Below, in pieces: positions 1-7,550 of a stretch of 7,550 bases of DNA (position 1 is the stretch's first letter; each line of letters starts with the position of its first letter). The position numbers and the translations under genes are program-made. The notes beneath the pieces were generated by a model. That model made no database searches and had not been told where the DNA came from. It saw only the letters and a list, made by a program, of their open reading frames with translations. The stretch lies in the NCBI GenBank assembly GCA_002392385.1, contig DGGX01000029.1, positions 1 through 7,550 of the forward strand, in the 5' to 3' direction. This DNA comes from Lachnospiraceae bacterium UBA3863 (GTDB lineage: Bacteria; Bacillota; Clostridia; Lachnospirales; Lachnospiraceae).

Positions 1-578
1 GCCACCTGGGCAACGGCGCCAGCATCTCCGCTGTCAACCACGGCAAGTGCGTCGACACCTCCATGGGCCTGACCCCCCTCGAGGGCCTGATCATGGGCAC
101 CCGCAGCGGTGACATCGACCCCGCCATCATCGAGTTCATCGCCAACAAGGAGAACCTGAACGTCACTGAGGTGCTCAACATCCTCAACAAGAAGTCCGGC
201 GTCTTCGCTCTGTCCGGCGGCCTCAGCTCCGATTTCCGTGATCTGGAAGCCGGCTACAAGAACGGCAACAAGCAGGCTCAGCTGGCCGTTGACGCTTTCT
301 GCTACAACGTGGCCAAATACGTCGGCGCCTACGCAGCGGCCATGAACGGCGTGGACGTCATCGCCTTCACCGCCGGCATCGGCGAGAACAGCCCCTTCGT
401 CCGCGAGAAGGTCCTGGCCTACTTCGGCTACCTGGGCATCGATGTGGACGAGGCAGCCAACGCCAACCGCGGCAAGGACATCCGCATCTCCACACCCGAC
501 AGCAAGGTGGCGGTCTACGTCATCCCCACCAACGAAGAGCTGGCCATCGCCAGAGAGACCTTCGCGCTGTGCAAGTAA
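1..578 (+). CDS. ackA: Acetate kinase, C-terminal half (5' end outside window)
   Basis: Acetate kinase interconverts acetyl phosphate plus ADP and acetate plus ATP in the cytoplasm, the last step of the Pta-AckA pathway. The reading frame enters at base 3 and encodes 191 residues to a TAA stop, about half of the usual ~400. Visible family motifs, in order, are HLGNGAS at the very start (contains the conserved active-site His), MGTRSGDIDP (contains the active-site Arg), GGLSSDFRDLE, the nucleotide-binding FTAGIGENSPFVRE stretch, and TNEELAIARET near the C-terminus (contains the conserved Glu). All key residues in this half are present and there is no frameshift. Codons end strongly in C or G, as in a highly expressed gene. 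No + strand terminator follows directly. The first hairpin with a T-tract on this strand lies at 1015-1055, so the mRNA may carry the whole foldback as its 3' UTR (inference). Confidence 0.97.
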   Translation, partial: HLGNGASISAVNHGKCVDTSMGLTPLEGLIMGTRSGDIDPAIIEFIANKENLNVTEVLNILNKKSGVFALSGGLSSDFRDLEAGYKNGNKQAQLAVDAFCYNVAKYVGAYAAAMNGVDVIAFTAGIGENSPFVREKVLAYFGYLGIDVDEAANANRGKDIRISTPDSKVAVYVIPTNEELAIARETFALCK

Positions 579-587
579 GAATTCAGT

Positions 588-622
588 AAAAAAGCTGCCG
601 CTGCGAGGTCCCTAACGGCAGC
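588..622 (-). terminator. Possible rho-independent terminator facing ackA
   Basis: Read on the minus strand, the 7-bp stem GCTGCCG/CGGCAGC (616-622 with 594-600) has a 15-nt loop and is followed at once by six T (588-593). It would stop minus-strand transcription that passed the regulator gene's first terminator, before it runs antisense into ackA. The same bases can instead pair with 1040-1055 as the outer stem of the foldback, so the two folds compete. Confidence 0.5.
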
Positions 623-799
623 CAAACGGTAAGACATACCATAAAGCCAATATCATTTTTAACGGGAACTTGTGATTCTCCACCGCCGCCCGGGAGTAAT
701 TTCGTAAGCGGCGCAGATATACAGGAAAGCCATAAGACCGGATACAAGGCTTTTGGAATGAGCGGAGAGTTTACCAATTCTTACGTCGGAGGAGAGAGG

Positions 800-884
800 G
801 CGAGGCCGGCAGCTCCTGCCGGCCGAGGCTCCGGATGTCTGAGCCGGCCGTCCATCGGGACGGACGGCGAGTTCCGGAGGCGTA
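800..884. other. Branched GC-rich hairpin tip of the foldback
   Basis: Two helices sit at the top of the long stem and would make a three-way junction. Hairpin A is GGCCGGCAG (804-812), a CTC loop, then CTGCCGGCC (816-824): nine perfect pairs. Hairpin B closes with CTCCGGA (829-835) against TCCGGAG (873-879) and encloses an inner hairpin, 843-853 with 858-868, that pairs at 10 of 11 positions around the tetraloop ATCG (854-857). Both strands could form equivalent shapes. No function can be assigned from the sequence. Such compact branching is more than simple arm complementarity requires, so a structured RNA is possible. Confidence 0.7.
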
Positions 885-952
885 CCTCTCTCCGATGAAA
901 AGTAAGAATTGAGTAAACTCCCGCGAAATTCCACGCCTGTATCCGGCCTTAT

Positions 953-1040
953 GGCCTTCCGGTAAACACAAAAGAACTGCCGCTTCCGAAATGGTCTTCC
1001 GGCAACCACAAAATAACTGCCGCTTCCGAAATGACCTTCC
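953..1040. repeat. 40-bp tandem repeat, 2.2 copies
   Basis: Unit 1 is 953-992 and unit 2 is 993-1032, followed by a third partial copy that starts at 1033 (GACCTTCCG). The two full units share AACTGCCGCTTCCGAAAT exactly and differ at only a few positions elsewhere. Each copy carries an inverted pair (TGCCG at 978-982 with CGGCA at 1000-1004; AACTGCCGCT at 1015-1024 with AGCGGCAGTT at 1043-1052), so the repeat duplicates a terminator-like hairpin. The matching left arm of the foldback has only one clear counterpart of this unit (699-712). Confidence 0.85.
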
Positions 1041-1055
1041 GCAGCGGCAGTTTTT
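1015..1055. terminator. Bidirectional rho-independent terminator
   Basis: A perfect 10-bp stem, AACTGCCGCT (1015-1024) with AGCGGCAGTT (1043-1052), has an 18-nt loop. On the + strand it runs into TTTTT (1051-1055), which would end ackA transcription. On the minus strand it is followed by TTATTTTG and starts directly after the regulator's stop codon, so it should end that transcript too. The T-run overlaps the first base of the reverse-strand stop triplet at 1055-1057. Confidence 0.75.
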
Positions 1056-1384
1056 CAGCTGTTGTTATTCTCGTTCTTCTTCCCCCGATTTTTCCTCGCG
1101 GCGGCCTTGCGTTCGCAGGTCTTCCTGAACATGGTGCGGTATTCTTCGAGGCGGGCGCGTGACTCTTCATTGAGGGGGCCCGGGGAGGAGTTGTCCGTGA
1201 TGCCCAGCAGGTAGTCGGTGGTGGTGTTGTAGATCAGTGCCAGGCGGACGAGGACGGAGATGGGAACGTCGTTCTCACCCGTCTCATATTTCGAGTAGCC
1301 GGTCTGGGACATACCCAGCAGTCCGGCGATATCATTCTGGCTCAGATCGTGATCTTCTCTGAGATTTCGAATTCTGTCGTACAT
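1055..1384 (-). CDS. Small XRE/Cro-CI type HTH transcriptional regulator
   Basis: This 109-residue protein has an N-terminal helix-turn-helix of the HTH_3 (Cro/C1) family at about residues 3-62: RIRNLREDHDLSQNDIAGLLGMSQTGYSKYETGE and on to the family-typical TTDYLLG end. The usual family pattern (LSQ..iA..lgmSqt.yskyE.G) is intact, so it should bind DNA, probably as a dimer. The C-terminal 45 residues hold a short charged helix (EESRARLEEYRTMF) and a very basic, Asn-rich tail with no recognisable ligand domain. The start is set by GGAGG five bases upstream of the ATG (1382-1384). It is transcribed divergently from rpmF and convergently with ackA. A perfect palindrome at 1454-1470 in the divergent gap is a candidate operator, so autoregulation is likely but inferred. 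It is unusual for such a gene to sit between ackA and rpmF. Target genes are unknown. Confidence 0.9.
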   Translation of the reverse strand: MYDRIRNLREDHDLSQNDIAGLLGMSQTGYSKYETGENDVPISVLVRLALIYNTTTDYLLGITDNSSPGPLNEESRARLEEYRTMFRKTCERKAAARKNRGKKNENNNS

Positions 1385-1420
1385 GTTAACCTCCCGCGGC
1401 GGGATAGACCCGATAGAGAG

Positions 1421-1449
1421 ATTATAAGATGTCTTTTGACCACCATAAG
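1421..1449 (-). promoter_or_regulatory. Probable promoter of the HTH regulator
   Basis: On the minus strand there is a perfect -10 box TATAAT (1421-1426). The -35 region is weak: TTATGG (1443-1448) at a 16-bp spacing is the best match. The implied start near 1414 gives a leader of about 30 nt. A strong -10 with a poor -35 suits a promoter that depends on a regulator bound just upstream. The palindrome centre at 1462 would be near -48. Confidence 0.5.
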
Positions 1450-1453
1450 AAAA

Positions 1454-1470
1454 TAACCTGAAACAGGTTA
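1454..1470. promoter_or_regulatory. Perfect 7-3-7 palindrome, candidate operator of the HTH regulator
   Basis: TAACCTG-AAA-CAGGTTA is a perfect inverted repeat with a 3-bp centre, of the size and shape bound by dimers of Cro/CI-type regulators. It lies in the divergent gap, upstream of the regulator's -10 box and about 70 bp upstream of the predicted rpmF start. A related half-site (AGGTTAA on the minus strand) overlaps the regulator's ribosome binding site at 1386-1392. There is no T-tract, so it is unlikely to be a terminator. Binding by the neighbouring regulator is inference. Confidence 0.6.
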
Positions 1471-1495
1471 AGAAAAGAAGGAAGGGAGAAAATGT

Positions 1496-1540
1496 ATGTT
1501 GACAAACCTTTTCGAACTGGGTAAAATACCTTTTGCATGA
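1496..1540 (+). pseudogene. 14-codon ORF, possible remnant of the yceD/DUF177 start
   Basis: ATG at 1496 opens MLTNLFELGKIPFA and stops at TGA (1538-1540). A good ribosome binding site (GAAGGGAG, 1481-1488) sits seven bases before it. In many Clostridia a DUF177 (YceD) gene lies directly upstream of rpmF and its product often begins with something like MLINL; that gene is missing here. The short frame may be its stump after a deletion. Against this, the -35 box of the rpmF promoter (1499-1504) lies inside it, so it would only be translated from a transcript starting further upstream. Chance resemblance of a few residues is quite possible. Confidence 0.25.
1499..1527 (+). promoter_or_regulatory. 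Sigma-A promoter for rpmF
   Basis: The -35 box is a perfect TTGACA (1499-1504). A 17-bp spacer leads to TAAAAT (1522-1527), one mismatch from the -10 consensus. The start would be near 1534, giving a short leader of about 30 nt that contains the rpmF ribosome binding site AAGGAGGT (1551-1558). This is among the best housekeeping promoter matches in the window, as expected for a ribosomal protein gene. Confidence 0.8.
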
Positions 1541-1564
1541 CTAAAGATGTAAGGAGGTGTAAAG

Positions 1565-1747
1565 ATGTCTATCTGCCCTAAGAATAAATCCTCGAAGAGC
1601 CACAGAGATATGCGGAGAGCGAACTGGAAGATGAGTGCTCCCACACTTGTGAAGTGCAGCAAGTGCGGTGCCCTGACCATGCCTCACCGTGTATGCAAGA
1701 AGTGCGGCAGCTATAATAAGCGCGAGATCGTCAAGGTTGAGGACTGA
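1565..1747 (+). CDS. rpmF: 50S ribosomal protein L32
   Basis: This 60-residue protein is a structural part of the large ribosomal subunit. The N-terminus MSICPKNKSSKSHRDMRRANW is the basic L32 leader in the form seen in Clostridia, and the full length matches the family. Four cysteines (C31-x2-C34 and C44-x2-C47) form the zinc ribbon of the C+ version of L32; some bacteria also carry a zinc-free version used under zinc limitation. The start is fixed by AAGGAGGT six bases before the ATG. The gene has its own strong promoter at 1499-1527. In related genomes it normally follows a DUF177 gene and precedes plsX. Here the DUF177 gene is missing and 309 bp separate it from plsX, so the two may be only partly co-transcribed. 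Confidence 0.97.
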   Translation: MSICPKNKSSKSHRDMRRANWKMSAPTLVKCSKCGALTMPHRVCKKCGSYNKREIVKVED

Positions 1748-1770
1748 GCGATCCGGACGCACGGAATGAG

Positions 1771-1835
1771 ATAAGTAATCAGGAACCCCGGGCCATGTAT
1801 GTGGTCCGGGGTATACTTATTGGATGATCTTTTTT
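1771..1835 (+). terminator. Strong hairpin after rpmF, possible terminator or attenuator
   Basis: The outer arms ATAAGTA (1771-1777) and TACTTAT (1814-1820) enclose a GC-rich stem, ACCCCGGGCC (1785-1794) with GGTCCGGGGT (1803-1812), which pairs throughout including one G-T. Six T (1830-1835) follow only after nine further bases, so it is not a textbook intrinsic terminator. It could reduce read-through from rpmF to plsX or protect the 3' end of a short rpmF mRNA. A 12-bp GC-rich palindrome (1837-1848) follows the T-run. Confidence 0.5.
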
Positions 1836-1854
1836 GCTCCCGCGGGAGGGCAGG

Positions 1855-1888
1855 ACCGGCGGCGGATACCGCCGCGCACACGTCCGGT
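1855..1888 (+). other. GC-rich hairpin upstream of the plsX promoter
   Basis: CGGCGG (1860-1865), an ATA loop and CCGCCG (1869-1874) make a 6-bp stem, and ACCGG (1855-1859) can pair with CCGGT (1884-1888) outside it. It is not followed by a T-run on either strand. It ends seven bases before the -35 box of the proposed plsX promoter. Its role is unknown, and chance pairing in GC-rich DNA cannot be ruled out. Confidence 0.4.
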
Positions 1889-1894
1889 GCTGTC

Positions 1895-1923
1895 TTGAAA
1901 TCTGTGGGGGCATTTAGTATATT
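1895..1923 (+). promoter_or_regulatory. Probable sigma-A promoter for plsX-acpP-rnc-smc
   Basis: TTGAAA (1895-1900) and TATATT (1918-1923) are separated by exactly 17 bp, and each box is close to consensus. The start would be near 1930, giving a leader of about 127 nt to plsX. An imperfect dyad, TTTAGTAT-ATTG-ATAGTGAA (1913-1932), covers the -10 box and could be a repressor site. It does not fit the FapR consensus spacing well. Confidence 0.6.
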
Positions 1924-1950
1924 GATAGTGAACAGGGTGCATCCGCGGAA

Positions 1951-2034
1951 GGTCTGAGACCGGCGGTATGAGGCTGACGGCCGGAAGGTGAAGGCCGGAG
2001 GCTGACGGTCTGAGAAGGAAGGCGGAGCACAGGA
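1951..2034 (+). repeat. Degenerate 28-bp direct repeat in the plsX leader
   Basis: GAGGCTGACGG occurs at 1970-1980 and again exactly 28 bp later at 1998-2008, and GGTCTGAGA occurs at 1951-1959 and 56 bp later at 2007-2015. Together these give a 28-bp period over three units (1951-1978, 1979-2006, 2007-2034), the third only partly conserved. The run is purine-rich. The reading frames through it are short and closed, so it does not look coding. It would lie in the 5' UTR of plsX. Confidence 0.55.
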
Positions 2035-2056
2035 ACCCAGAGAGAAGGATACAGAT

Positions 2057-3070
2057 ATGAGTGAACTGGTGACGGTGGCACTGGATGCGATGGGCGGCGA
2101 TAACGCCCCCGGAGAGATCGTAAAGGGAGCTGTGAATGCCCTCAACGCCAATGCGGGTGTGCGGGTGATCCTGGTAGGCAGACAGGAGGAGATCGATAAG
2201 GTGCTGGCCGAGGCGGGTCCTTATCCTGCGGACAGGCTCAGTATCCGGCATGCGTCGGAAGTGATCGAGATGGGCGAACCGCCGGTGGATGCCCTGCGGC
2301 GGAAGAAGGACTCCTCCATCGTTGTGGGCATGAAGATGGTCCGGAACGGCGAGTGTGACGCTTTTGTCACCGCCGGCTCGAGCGGCGCGGCGCTGGCGGG
2401 AGGTCAGCTCCTCGTCAGGCGGATCAAGGGGATCGAGAGGCCGCCTTTTGCCCCGATCCTTCCCTCGGCGAAGGGACCGGTCCTGCTGGTGGACTGCGGA
2501 GCCAACATGGACCCACGGCCGTCTCAGCTGGTGCAATTCGCGCAGATGGGCAGCGTCTACATGAAGAATATGTGCGGGATCGAGAATCCCCGTGTCGCCA
2601 TCGTCAATGTCGGCGCGGAGGAGGAGAAGGGCAACGCCCTGGTCAAGGAGACCCGTCCTCTGCTGGAGGCCTGCAGCGGTATCAACTTCATCGGCAATAT
2701 CGAGGGAAGGGATATCGTGGAAGGCGCGGCGGATGTGGTCGTGACGGACGCCTTCACAGGCAACGCGATCCTCAAGACCATGGAAGGGACGGCGTCTGTG
2801 CTGATCCACGGCATCAAAGATGCCATGATGTCCAGCCTGCGCACCAAGATCGGCGCCCTGCTGGTCAAGCCGGCCCTCAAGGATCTGCTCAAGAATTTCG
2901 ACGCCACCGAGTACGGCGGCGCCCCTATGCTGGGACTGACGGGTCTGGTGGTGAAGTGCCACGGCAACTCCACGGCCAAGGAGATCAGCAAGTCCATCGA
3001 ACAGTGTGTTCTGTTCAAAGAGAAGAGGATCAACGAACAGCTGGCGGAGGCTATGGGCCTGCAGATGTGA
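2057..3070 (+). CDS. plsX: Phosphate acyltransferase PlsX (acyl-ACP:phosphate acyltransferase)
   Basis: PlsX converts acyl-ACP and phosphate to acyl-phosphate plus ACP. The acyl-phosphate is then used by PlsY to start phospholipid synthesis, so it links fatty acid and membrane lipid synthesis; in other bacteria it is a peripheral membrane enzyme. The 337 residues match the usual length. Conserved stretches, in order, are LDAMGGDNAP (9-18), VTAGSSGA (104-111), LLVDCGANMDPRP (about 143-156), NVGAEEEKGN (about 183-193), FIGNIEGRDI (about 211-220), VVVTDAFTGNAILK (227-240) and EYGGAPMLGL (285-294). No residue expected from the family looks lost. The start is supported by GAGAAGGA eight bases before the ATG. 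acpP follows after 42 bp, which fits a shared transcript in which PlsX's partner ACP is made from the same operon. Confidence 0.97.
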   Translation: MSELVTVALDAMGGDNAPGEIVKGAVNALNANAGVRVILVGRQEEIDKVLAEAGPYPADRLSIRHASEVIEMGEPPVDALRRKKDSSIVVGMKMVRNGECDAFVTAGSSGAALAGGQLLVRRIKGIERPPFAPILPSAKGPVLLVDCGANMDPRPSQLVQFAQMGSVYMKNMCGIENPRVAIVNVGAEEEKGNALVKETRPLLEACSGINFIGNIEGRDIVEGAADVVVTDAFTGNAILKTMEGTASVLIHGIKDAMMSSLRTKIGALLVKPALKDLLKNFDATEYGGAPMLGLTGLVVKCHGNSTAKEISKSIEQCVLFKEKRINEQLAEAMGLQM

Positions 3071-3112
3071 ATCTGCGGCAGCAAATTCTGAATATTTTTG
3101 GAGGAAAGAATC

Positions 3113-3352
3113 ATGGATATCGAGTTCAAAAAGCTCTGTGGTATCATTGCGGATGTTCTGGGCGTAGATGAGGCGGAGATCACAAGGGACACGACCTTTG
3201 AGGATGATCTGGGCGCGGATTCTCTGGATATTGCGCAGATCGTCATGGGCATCGAAGAGGAGTTCGGGCTCGAAGTGGATCTGGACAATGTCGGCAAGAT
3301 CACGACTGTGGGAGAGGCACTGGATCTGATCCGCTCCGCTGTGGAGGGATAA
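3113..3352 (+). CDS. acpP: Acyl carrier protein
   Basis: This small acidic protein carries growing acyl chains as thioesters on a 4'-phosphopantetheine arm, for fatty acid synthesis and for PlsX. The attachment serine is S37 in the classic GADSLDI motif. The 79 residues, the four-helix pattern and the high Glu/Asp content fit the family. A TTG at 3098 is in frame and would add five residues, but GGAGG (3100-3104) lies eight bases before the ATG at 3113, and the product then starts MDIEFKK as expected, so 3113 was chosen. The TAA stop directly abuts the rnc start. Confidence 0.97.
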   Translation: MDIEFKKLCGIIADVLGVDEAEITRDTTFEDDLGADSLDIAQIVMGIEEEFGLEVDLDNVGKITTVGEALDLIRSAVEG

Positions 3353-4057
3353 ATGACACAGTTCTCATCACTGGAAGAGAGAATGGGTTATCGCTTCCGG
3401 GAGCAGGCGCTTCTGGAATGTGCGCTGACCCATTCTTCCTACGCAAACGAACAGAAGATCCGCAGGACACAGGACTATGAGAGAATGGAATTCCTGGGAG
3501 ACGCGGTCCTGGAGATGGTCTCCAGCGCTTTTCTCTACAGGGAGTGTCCGGAGAGTCCGGAGGGAGAACTGTCAAGAATGCGGGCGGCCCTGGTGTGTGA
3601 GCCGGCCCTGGCCCGTTCGGCCGCGGCCCTGGATCTGTCCGACTACATACGTGTGGGACGGGGCGAGGAGCTGTCCGGCGGGAGGTTCAGGGAATCGATC
3701 GTGGCGGATGTGATGGAGGCCATTATCGGCGCCATGTTTCTGGACAGCGGGAGCGCCGCGGAGCCGGAACGCTTCATCCGGCGCTTCATTCTGCGGGACC
3801 CGCGGCAGGCTCTTATGCACAGCGATGCCAAGACGCTGCTGCAGGAGAAGGTGCAGAGCCTGGGCCTTCATGTACACTATGAACTGCTCTCGGAGAGCGG
3901 GCCGGACCATGAGAAGATGTACCGCATGGGCGTCTTCGTAGAGGACAGGCTCCTGGCAGAGGGTGAAGGACGGTCCAAAAAGACCGCCGGGCAGGAAGCC
4001 GCCTACGCGGCCCTTGCGCGCAGCAGCGAAGACGCGGGAATATTTACATGTATCTGA
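3353..4057 (+). CDS. rnc: Ribonuclease III
   Basis: This endonuclease cuts double-stranded RNA, including rRNA precursors and structured mRNAs, and acts as a homodimer with Mg2+. The 234 residues contain the catalytic domain (about 5-150) with the signature ERMEFLGDAVL (43-53). Active-site acids match those of the E. coli enzyme: E43, E46, D50, D119 and E122 (in VADVMEAIIGA). A double-stranded RNA-binding domain follows at about 158-226, ending in the typical GRSKKTAGQEAAYAAL. The ATG comes immediately after the acpP stop, with its ribosome binding site GGAGG (3343-3347) inside the end of acpP, so translation is probably coupled. The last 10 bases overlap smc. The long hairpin at 588-1055 would be a plausible substrate if transcribed (inference). 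Confidence 0.97.
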   Translation: MTQFSSLEERMGYRFREQALLECALTHSSYANEQKIRRTQDYERMEFLGDAVLEMVSSAFLYRECPESPEGELSRMRAALVCEPALARSAAALDLSDYIRVGRGEELSGGRFRESIVADVMEAIIGAMFLDSGSAAEPERFIRRFILRDPRQALMHSDAKTLLQEKVQSLGLHVHYELLSESGPDHEKMYRMGVFVEDRLLAEGEGRSKKTAGQEAAYAALARSSEDAGIFTCI

Positions 4058-7000
4058 AAAGTATTGAGATCCAGGGCTTTAAGTCTTTTGCAAGCAAGAT
4101 CCGGTTTGAATTTCATAATGGCATCACAGCGATCGTAGGGCCCAACGGAAGCGGCAAGAGCAACGTGGCCGACGCGGTCAGATGGGTGCTGGGAGAACAG
4201 AGAGTCAGGCAGCTGAGGGGCCATTCCATGCAGGATGTTATTTTTGCGGGAACTGAGCTCAGAAAGCCGCTTGGCTCCGCCTATGTGGCCATCACCCTGG
4301 ACAACAGCGACGGCAAGCTTCCCATCGCCTATGAAGAAGTGACGGTGGCGAGGAGGATCTACCGGAGCGGTGAGAGCGAGTACCTCCTGAACGGCAGTGT
4401 CTGCCGGCTCCGGGACGTGCAGGAGCTCTTCTATGACACCGGTATCGGCAAGGAAGGCTACTCCATCATCGGACAGGGACAGATCGAGAAGATCCTCAGC
4501 GACAAGCCCGAGGACCGGCGTGAGCTGTTCGACGAGGCGGCGGGCATCGTGAAGTTCAAACGCCGCAAGGAGACCTCCCTGAGGAAGCTGGCCAGCGAGA
4601 AGGACAATCTCACCAGGGTCAGCGATATCCTGGGAGAGCTGGAACGGCAGATCCCCTCTCTGGAAAAACAGTCGGAGAAGGCCCGCGCCTGGCTCAAGCT
4701 CCGCGATGAACTGCGGTCGCTGGACGTCAATGCCTTCCTGCTGGAGAACCGCAAGAGCATGGACGATCTCACGGAGCTGCGGGGCAAGGAGGAGATCGCC
4801 GCCGCGGAGCTGGAGAGCACCCGGGCGGAGCGGGAAGCAGCCGCTGCCCAGACCCGGGAGCAGGACGACCGTCTGTCCGCGCTGGAGAAACAGATCGACG
4901 ATCTGCGCAGCCGGATCACCGGCGCCAGTGTGATCCGCAGCCGCCTGGAGGGCGACTGCAAGGTCCTGGAGGAGCAGATCCGGGGCGCCCTGCAGAATGA
5001 AGAGCATTTCCGGGAGAGACTGACCTCCGTGGACGGAGACATCACCTCCCGGCAGACAGAGCTGGATTCCCTGATGGCCGGCAAGACCTCCGTGGACGAC
5101 CGTGTTGCGGAGCTGGTCAGGAACAGGGAGGCGGCCCGGGCTGAGCTGGGCGCCACGGAGGAGGAGATCCGGACCCTGTCGGGTTCCCTGGAGCAGGGCA
5201 GACAGGAGGTCCTGGATATCGTCTCCAAACGGGCCGCCATCCGGTCCAGACTGGCCGCCCTGGAGACCCGGGCCACCCAGCTGACCCAGCAGCGGATCGA
5301 CACCCAGCAGCGGATGCAGGCCCTGCAGTCCGACGAGGACCAGCAGAAGCAGCGCATCACGGAGCTGCGGGCACAGTTCGTGGAGATCGGCGACAGGATC
5401 CGGGACAATGAGCGCCTGCAGAAGGAGACCGAGGAGAAGATCGGCTCCATGAAGGGCAGGCTGTCCTCCGAGGACGCCCAGCTCCGGGAAGCGCAGATGC
5501 GCTATCACCAGGACCAGTCCCGTCTGGACGCCCTGATCAACCTGGCCGAGCGCTATGAGGGATTCGGCGGCAGTGTCCGCAGAGTCATGAGCGAGCGCAG
5601 GCGTGCCCCCGGCATCGTGGGCGTGGTGGCCGACCTGATCAAGACGGACAAGCGTTACGAGACGGCCATCGAGACGGCCCTGGGCGGCAGCATTCAGAAT
5701 ATCGTCACCGAGGACGAGGCCACGGCCAAGTCCATGATCGAGCTCCTCAAGAGGGAGAAGGCCGGCAGGGCTACTTTTCTCCCGCTTACTTCCCTCAAGG
5801 ATCCCCAGACCCTGCGGCAGAAGCAGATCCTGAACGAGCCCGGCATCATCGGCACGGCCGACAGGCTGGTGAGGACCGACGAGAGGTACCGGTCCGTGGC
5901 GGAGAGCCTTCTGGGCAGGATCGTGGTGGCGGACACCTTCGATCACGCCGCGGCGGCGGCCCGCAGATACGGGCAGGGCGTGCGCATGGTCACCCTGGAG
6001 GGAGAGCTTTTCGCTCCCGGCGGCGCCATCAGCGGCGGTGCCTTTAAGAACAACAGCAATCTCCTGGGAAGACGCAGAGAGATGGAGGAACTGCGCCGCA
6101 GCGTAGCGGAGGACGAGGCCCGGATCCGGGTCCATGAGCAGGCCATCGAGGACACCAAGAGAGAGAGAAATACCCTGCGGGCCAGTCTGGAAGAGGGACG
6201 CACACAGCAGCAGAAGCTGTTCCTGGAGCAGAATACGGTCAGACTGAGCATCCAGACAGAGCTGGAGAAGCAGGAGGAGTCAAGCGGCAGCGCGGAAGAA
6301 CTGGAGCGGGAGATGAACCGCCTGGCGGAGGAGCTGACCCAGACCCGTCAGGAGATGACGGCCCAGGCCGGCGAGCTGTCGGGCTCCGAGGAGCGCGAGG
6401 CGGCCGTTTCCGCCAGAAATACACAGGAAGAGAAGGATCTGGCCCTTCTGAGAGAGAAGGAGACGCAGCAGTCCGGCGCCGCGGCCCGCTGGGACGTGGA
6501 GATCGAGAAGACGGCCCAGCAGCAGTCCTTCGAGGAACAGAATATCCGCCGTCTCGAGGAGGAGATCAGACGCTACGCGGCCGAGAAGGAAGAACTGAGC
6601 ACGGAGATCACCGCCAGCAGCCAGGGAAGGGAAGAGAAGACCCGGAGACTGACCATGCTGCGGGAGCGCATCAAGACAGCGGATTCCCAGCACGAGGACG
6701 GCGCCAGGGAGATGACGGCCCTGGGAGAGGAGCGCTCAGCCATCCAGGCAGCCCTCAAGGAAGCCTCCGCCCGCAAGGAAGAGCTGGCGACGCGGATCGC
6801 GGCCCTGGACAAGGAATGCTTCCGGCTGGGAGCCAGACGGGAGCGTCTGCAGGAGTCTGTCGACAGCCAGGTCGCCTACATGTGGGAGGAATATGAGCTG
6901 ACCCTGTCCCAGGCCAGAGAGCTGCGGGACGAGACGCTCACGGACCTGAACGCCCTCAAGCGGGAGATCACCGCCCGCAAGAACGCCATCAAGGAACTGG

Positions 7001-7550
7001 GCAGCGTCAACGTCGGTGCCGTGGAGGAGTACAAGGAGCTCATGGAGCGCTACACCTTCCTCAAGACCCAGCACGACGATCTGACCGAGGCGGCCGCCGC
7101 CCTGGAGAAGATCATCGCCGACCTGGACGAGTCCATGCGCAGACAGTTCCGGGAGCAGTTCGACAGGATCATGAAAGAGTTCGACAAGGTCTTCAAGATC
7201 ATGTTCGGCGGCGGTGCCGGCCGGCTGGAGCTCATGGAGGGCGAGGACCTTCTGGAAGCCGGCGTGCGCGTCATCGCGCAGCCCCCGGGCAAGAAGCTCC
7301 AGAATATGATGCAGCTGTCCGGCGGAGAGAAGTCGCTGACAGCTATCGCCCTGCTTTTTGCCATTCAGAACCTGAAGCCGTCGCCCTTCTGTCTGCTGGA
7401 CGAGATCGAGGCGGCCCTGGATGAGAGCAATGTGCAGCGCTTCGCGGAATATCTGCACAAGCTGACGGAACACACACAGTTTATCGTGATCACCCACCGC
7501 AGAGGGACCATGGAGGAGGCGGACCGCCTGTACGGCATCACCATGCAGGA
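4048..7550 (+). CDS. smc: Chromosome segregation protein SMC (3' end outside window)
   Basis: SMC is the ATPase of the bacterial condensin complex with ScpA and ScpB; it compacts and separates chromosomes after loading near the origin. The frame is open through 1167 residues to the window edge, probably only about 20-30 residues short of the end. Order of parts: N-terminal ATPase head with Walker A GPNGSGKSN (31-39), first coiled coil (about 170-510, rich in Glu, Arg, Gln and Leu), hinge (about 522-668, ending near GGAISGGAF), second coiled coil (about 675-1010), then the C-terminal head with signature motif LSGGEKS (1090-1096), Walker B FCLLDEIEAALDE (1114-1126, catalytic E1119) and the switch histidine ITH (H1150). 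The ATG at 4048 overlaps the rnc stop by 10 bp with only a weak GGGAA before it, so translation likely depends on coupling to rnc. In related genomes ftsY normally follows. Confidence 0.97.
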   Translation, partial: MYLKSIEIQGFKSFASKIRFEFHNGITAIVGPNGSGKSNVADAVRWVLGEQRVRQLRGHSMQDVIFAGTELRKPLGSAYVAITLDNSDGKLPIAYEEVTVARRIYRSGESEYLLNGSVCRLRDVQELFYDTGIGKEGYSIIGQGQIEKILSDKPEDRRELFDEAAGIVKFKRRKETSLRKLASEKDNLTRVSDILGELERQIPSLEKQSEKARAWLKLRDELRSLDVNAFLLENRKSMDDLTELRGKEEIAAAELESTRAEREAAAAQTREQDDRLSALEKQIDDLRSRITGASVIRSRLEGDCKVLEEQIRGALQNEEHFRERLTSVDGDITSRQTELDSLMAGKTSVDDRVAELVRNREAARAELGATEEEIRTLSGSLEQGRQEVLDIVSKRAAIRSRLAALETRATQLTQQRIDTQQRMQALQSDEDQQKQRITELRAQFVEIGDRIRDNERLQKETEEKIGSMKGRLSSEDAQLREAQMRYHQDQSRLDALINLAERYEGFGGSVRRVMSERRRAPGIVGVVADLIKTDKRYETAIETALGGSIQNIVTEDEATAKSMIELLKREKAGRATFLPLTSLKDPQTLRQKQILNEPGIIGTADRLVRTDERYRSVAESLLGRIVVADTFDHAAAAARRYGQGVRMVTLEGELFAPGGAISGGAFKNNSNLLGRRREMEELRRSVAEDEARIRVHEQAIEDTKRERNTLRASLEEGRTQQQKLFLEQNTVRLSIQTELEKQEESSGSAEELEREMNRLAEELTQTRQEMTAQAGELSGSEEREAAVSARNTQEEKDLALLREKETQQSGAAARWDVEIEKTAQQQSFEEQNIRRLEEEIRRYAAEKEELSTEITASSQGREEKTRRLTMLRERIKTADSQHEDGAREMTALGEERSAIQAALKEASARKEELATRIAALDKECFRLGARRERLQESVDSQVAYMWEEYELTLSQARELRDETLTDLNALKREITARKNAIKELGSVNVGAVEEYKELMERYTFLKTQHDDLTEAAAALEKIIADLDESMRRQFREQFDRIMKEFDKVFKIMFGGGAGRLELMEGEDLLEAGVRVIAQPPGKKLQNMMQLSGGEKSLTAIALLFAIQNLKPSPFCLLDEIEAALDESNVQRFAEYLHKLTEHTQFIVITHRRGTMEEADRLYGITMQ

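Follow-up and report, generated by a model that had tools for sequence, protein, structure and literature searches.

A dispersed foldback DNA family with a conserved three-way head between ackA and a regulator gene in a Lachnospiraceae bacterium

The window analysed here is a stretch of 7,550 nucleotides from Lachnospiraceae bacterium UBA3863 (assembly GCA_002392385.1, contig DGGX01000029.1, positions 1 to 7,550), and its genome is referred to below as G000. At its start the 3' part of the acetate kinase gene ackA and a helix-turn-helix regulator gene face each other across a convergent gap of 476 bp, which extends from the ackA stop ending at 578 to the start of the regulator gene at 1055. 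The features of both genes and of the gap are given below, where R1 denotes a covariance model built from 23 aligned heads of the family, starting from blastn matches.

3 to 578, + strand: ackA (acetate kinase), 3' part (Pfam Acetate_kinase, E 1.5e-75)
588 to 605: GCTGCCGCTGCG, inverted repeat read as the left arm of a split two-way terminator by comparison with compact hairpins in loci L204 and L205
605 to 719: spacer of 115 bp that matches only itself in its own genome, with no second match in this assembly (73% complete)
720 to 964, - strand: core foldback element of about 245 bp, with arms 720-746/938-964 and an extent common to five other type-I heads of the genome
769 to 907, - strand: head and upper stem (R1 match, 127.9 bits)
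804 to 824, - strand: HP1 hairpin of the head, GGCCGGCAG-GAG-CTGCCGGCC on the - strand (from fold and alignment)
836 to 843, - strand: unpaired, near-invariant CTCAGACA, 3' foot of HP2 (from conservation across heads)
844 to 867, - strand: HP2 hairpin of the head, with free sequence and a covarying stem (from covariation)
868 to 873, - strand: unpaired, near-invariant AACTC(G), 5' foot of HP2 (from conservation across heads)
951 to 1046: tandem 40-bp repeats, two full (951-1030) and one partial, between the core and the right terminator arm
1040 to 1055: CGCAGCGGCAG, inverted repeat read as the right arm of the split terminator
1055 to 1384, - strand: helix-turn-helix regulator gene (Pfam HTH_3, E 5.2e-13)

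The original prediction had described a single foldback of 468 bp in this gap, and the foldback is real on both strands. Region 580-1060 folds at -237.5 kcal/mol on the + strand (z -13.8) and at -250.1 kcal/mol on the - strand (z -11.3), and none of 100 shuffles equalled either value. The outer ends are, as proposed, an inverted repeat (590-605/1040-1055, 94% complementary over 16 nt), the inner arms are 89% complementary over 27 nt, and the expected block of 18 pairs with one bulge (767-784 with 902-920) is present in the minimum-energy fold. The pairing therefore stood while the single unit did not, since the foldback is a composite, with the putative split terminator arms outside, the family core at about 720-964 inside, and the spacer and tandem repeats between them. 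The tandem repeats bridge the core end and the arm at 1040-1055, an arrangement that a duplication of the junction might leave.

The outer repeat was compared with the orthologous gaps of two genomes of the same genus, G031 and G065, in which both genes are likewise convergent. Over the aligned parts, ackA is 94% identical in each and the regulator 70% (G031) and 47% (G065) identical, with gaps of 166 bp and 84 bp respectively. Each gap holds one compact terminator-like hairpin beside a T-run and no foldback, R1 giving no match there even at E 10, and the arms of the G065 hairpin, GGAGCTGCCGCATGCAGATGCGGCAGCTCC, resemble those of the window. On this comparison the outer inverted repeat is most plausibly a two-way terminator whose arms now stand about 435 bp apart, rather than the termini of an element. 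Each arm also forms a hairpin with neighbouring sequence, 588-605 with 605-623 followed by T6 on the - strand, and 1040-1055 with 1015-1024 followed by T5 on the + strand. The presence and absence of the foldback would fit either a gain in the window or a loss in G031 and G065; the proposed history is a gain, in which the window copy would have landed within the loop of the hairpin that serves as ackA terminator. A general insertion of heads into hairpin loops was considered and rejected. Complementary flank blocks of at least 9 were found at 19 of 50 single heads, where 9.9 were expected and 200 shuffles reached 16 at most. Most of this excess is REP sequence, which leaves the window's terminator as an isolated case. 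Terminators sought by motif were not conspicuous, with 2 found where 1.2 were expected.

Further copies of the core were recovered in G000 itself, with five additional blastn matches to the foldback and 17 matches to R1 at E <= 0.01, a count that takes in the window's own copy and two partial matches. Across the genus, 174 R1 matches at E <= 0.001 were summed over 29 of 62 genomes, with at most 52 candidates scored per genome and a few matches being partial or both strands of one place; the most were found in G065 (40), G082 (21), and G000 and G070 (16 each). A family-wide draw, with 10 candidates scored per genome, gave R1 matches in 3 of 299 genomes, 2 of 297 outside the genus. One of these two, in G173, shares coordinates and score with locus L088, and the other is weak and 87 nt long. 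Scanning with an exact pattern retrieved 18 stretches in named genomes, all Lachnospiraceae and several from ruminant guts, and none in a viral collection.

These copies are dispersed. The six type-I heads of G000, that of the window included, align over about 245 bp and diverge outside, and unrelated flanks surround same-genome copies in G070 (93% identical over 273 bp), in G000 (92%, 335 bp) and in G032 (98%, 295 bp). Within genomes, single units come back at 80-93% identity, again between unrelated flanks, and the same head pair of about 630-660 bp occurs in three species at loci with different flanks. Together with the presence and absence at the orthologous gap, these results bear out the MITE-like family that had been suggested for this gap. 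The core belongs to a new dispersed foldback DNA family, in kind close to MITEs and REPINs, and the portions of the literature covered by a search yielded no description of a Y-headed foldback family.

Family members consist of a long imperfect stem followed by a three-way head, a junction carrying two hairpins, when read on the HP2-first or 'forward' strand, which for the core element is the - strand of the window. The unpaired feet of HP2 are near-invariant, the AACTC foot with a conservation of 0.98-1.00 across heads and the TCAGACA foot (TCA.ACA) with 0.95-1.00, its fourth base being G in 0.77. Subfamilies with little else in common retain HP2 and these feet. This conserved three-way head, kept as DNA, is the new feature of the family.

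Homologues with conserved pairing were indeed found, as compensatory changes are present throughout the head. When 111 matches were aligned to R1, all 25 modelled pairs displayed double changes (680 cells), with a covariation score of 0.615 against 0.153 in shuffled and at most 0.110 in slid alignments, the alignment having been fitted to the structure. Such very strong fold and covariation would be expected of a structured non-coding RNA or 3'-UTR element with its RNA fold under selection, the other identity first proposed for the foldback, and the intergenic position of the heads is in line with it. An RNA fold should, on the other hand, leave G-U mispairs well above A-C, whereas the two were about equal here: 37 G-U and 38 A-C in the R1-aligned matches, and 211 and 260 respectively (with 6062 Watson-Crick pairs and 1101 others) in an arm alignment that scored Watson-Crick pairs only and so favoured neither strand; it covered 81 heads, 13 of the 94 non-redundant ones having been dropped for a low arm score. 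As a positive control, RNase P RNAs of the genus (30 sequences) were passed through the same align-and-fold pipeline, and there G-U exceeded A-C by 352 to 11, that is 32-fold. Head sets in that pipeline gave G-U:A-C ratios of 17:20 (G070, 15 heads), 36:36 (G065, 22 heads) and 9:15 (G000 subfamilies II/III, 8 heads), and the 23 type-I heads alone showed a mild excess of 22:10 that favours RNA. The fold constraint is therefore placed on DNA and not on RNA, and the paired changes, which preserve base pairs, would fit folded DNA rather than RNA as far as aligned sequences can tell. Usual practice would call this covariation an RNA family, and it is the equal rarity of G-U and A-C that points to DNA; with the RNase P RNAs of the genus as its yardstick, this ratio offers a cheap discriminator between DNA and RNA folds for intergenic repeats.

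Genomic context gave further indications. On a rough list of 115 rows, 102 with both neighbours, which predates the removal of false heads, flanking genes occur in all orientations, convergent being commonest (35/102) as a 3'-UTR element might have it, and heads lie in mixed orientation to the upstream gene (62 sense, 47 antisense), contrary to what an RNA element predicts. The presence of heads is also patchy, and no Rfam match in the window reached the gathering cut-off, while five related loci gave only a weak one (E 0.77), whose overlap looks like chance. A structured RNA is consequently considered improbable. Motif-based head lists held false matches in coding DNA, 13 of 94 being removed by arm score; for the list of 95 heads used below, 16 matches were removed by a hand list, three of these 16 being judgement calls at the ends of loci.

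Arm correction by hairpin-templated repair is an alternative source of Watson-Crick double changes. Template-switch correction of quasi-palindromes could in this way equalise the arms of a functionless fold spread by some other, unspecified route, and the double changes are almost all from Watson-Crick to Watson-Crick, as templated correction gives. The AACTC and TCAGACA feet and the internal loops persist across subfamilies, though, where correction would erase them, which makes this explanation hardly a probable one.

In 23 of 23 fetched loci with two matches, these are convergent (+ then -) and 233-1017 bp apart, two further loci having been omitted in which both strands matched the same place. 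Between paired heads no notable open frame was seen among those of at least 70 codons, locus L174 carrying one of 101 codons. Several other repeats adjoin heads. A 16-bp palindrome, TGTTTCACGTGAAACA, which we take to be parS, stands either side of the head at L009 (about 1423 and 1785) and in the flanks at L147 (G012 and G070). Tandem hairpin repeats of about 72 bp (GTGCCCCTGGAGGGTGTTCCAGGGGCAC) adjoin a head in G006 (L008:1778-2102), and repeated units with GGACGATTCTCAC, perhaps degenerate REPs, lie between and beyond a pair of type-I heads in G000 (L002:1720-2304, contig C187).

The insertion sequence IS1182 was examined as a possible mover. At L088:479-2480 a head lies between an IS1182 transposase gene, which passes the NCBIfam cut-off, and an IS1182-like terminal repeat; IS1182 ends adjoin several other heads, and the G173 copy, in another genus, has the coordinates and score of L088. 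Heads could accordingly be passive MITEs of this DDE transposon, with the foldback a by-product of palindromic ends. The transposase was found, however, in 8 of 25 genomes tested and not in the head-rich G070, G077, G078 and G082, and only 6 of 95 heads, all outside G000, have the terminal repeat on their 5' side. In G065 (L127, contig C24, about 1-2300) an IS1182-family element with ends GGGGCTGTCGCA has inserted into the HP2 portion of a head of subfamily II, so that IS1182 also acts as a visitor. As a general mover IS1182 was rejected on these transposase and terminal-repeat counts, and its passive MITEs are an unlikely identity for the family; it is kept as a carrier of some heads.

A second candidate is the REP-associated tyrosine transposase (RAYT). 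A protein encoded on contig C166 of G000 scores above the NCBIfam REP_Tyr_transpos cut-off, and beside the RAYT genes of G000, G065 and G082 stands the REP CACACAGGGGACGGTTCTCTGTGTG or a close variant of it. REPs of this type stand 125-160 nt 5' of the head in all 10 subfamily II/III heads of G000, in 16 of 28 heads of G065 and in 1 of 6 of G082, with an inverted copy 3' of the head in 10. They are absent 5' of the 51 remaining of the 95 heads, which include all six type-I heads of G000 and thus that of the window. RAYT at E <= 1e-20, a cut-off that lets in more distant Y1 proteins, was detected in 21 of the 29 genomes with heads and in 5 of the 32 without (p 8e-6, with kinship ignored and genomes incomplete). 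G070 has 16 head matches and no Y1 gene or RAYT was found in it; G031 has 5 head matches and no RAYT, and no R1 match lies near the Y1 genes of 26 loci. RAYT as the mover of all heads was therefore rejected, considering its own short REPs, the lack of heads nearby and the exceptions G070 and G031. Its role is partly restored because its REPs occupy a constant position 5' of the heads in subfamilies II/III, a link shown by position only and for subfamilies other than that of the window.

Taken together, the window holds one member of a dispersed family of DNA foldbacks of about 245 bp, likely a non-autonomous mobile element that is moved as folded single-stranded DNA, probably by a REP-associated Y1 (HUH) transposase, a proposal whose chances we rate as even. 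Folding of the strands would take place while the DNA is in single-stranded form, as during replication, and the signal for binding or cleavage would be the head, namely HP2 with its invariant single-stranded feet AACTC and TCAGACA. Neither an excision junction nor a target duplication could be established, the flanks read showing no evident target-site duplication, and no terminal inverted repeat or target duplication common to all subfamilies was found. The different ends beside heads (REP, IS1182 or none) suggest a head-specific enzyme or process. A broader proposal, held tentatively and with the balance somewhat against it, is a class of single-strand-DNA mobile elements that would use a three-way-junction DNA fold of about 245 nt as substrate, evolve in the manner of a structured RNA yet be read as DNA, accept several unrelated end types and possess their own putative Y-head-specific enzyme.

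Among known systems, the integron attC site works through a folded DNA strand with unpaired bases rather than through its sequence, and its ends bear the boxes GTTRRRY/RYYYAAC. The heads resemble it as DNA-level hairpins with conserved unpaired bases and variable stems, and an attC-like recombination site of an integron-like system might be imagined; yet attC-type end boxes occur in 0 of 95 heads and heads lack gene-cassette order, which renders this identity very remote.

REPIN/RAYT systems are closer, as their units are extragenic and dispersed, with inverted repeats that let them fold as single strands (PMC3116915, PMC6006769), and in G000 the subfamily II/III units lie between two REPs in inverted orientation that match those next to the RAYT gene. 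In the published GI case about 71 bp separate the REPIN ends, whereas here a foldback of about 245 bp with a conserved three-way head occupies the space between the REPs. The element is not filed as a REPIN because the window's copy, like its subfamily, is without REPs. IS200/IS605 elements share subterminal DNA hairpins, single-strand recognition by Y1 enzymes and short hairpin-foot sequences, and their REP-sized hairpins span 21-65 nt (PMC6006769), compared with the fold of about 245 nt described here. Should the head be a single-strand transposase substrate, it would thus far exceed in size and complexity the REP-size hairpins described in those publications. Prokaryotic MITEs (PMC10969869) are similarly short, non-coding, dispersed and intergenic, with no open frame needed; the present family differs from them by a core with RNA-like structural conservation at the DNA level.
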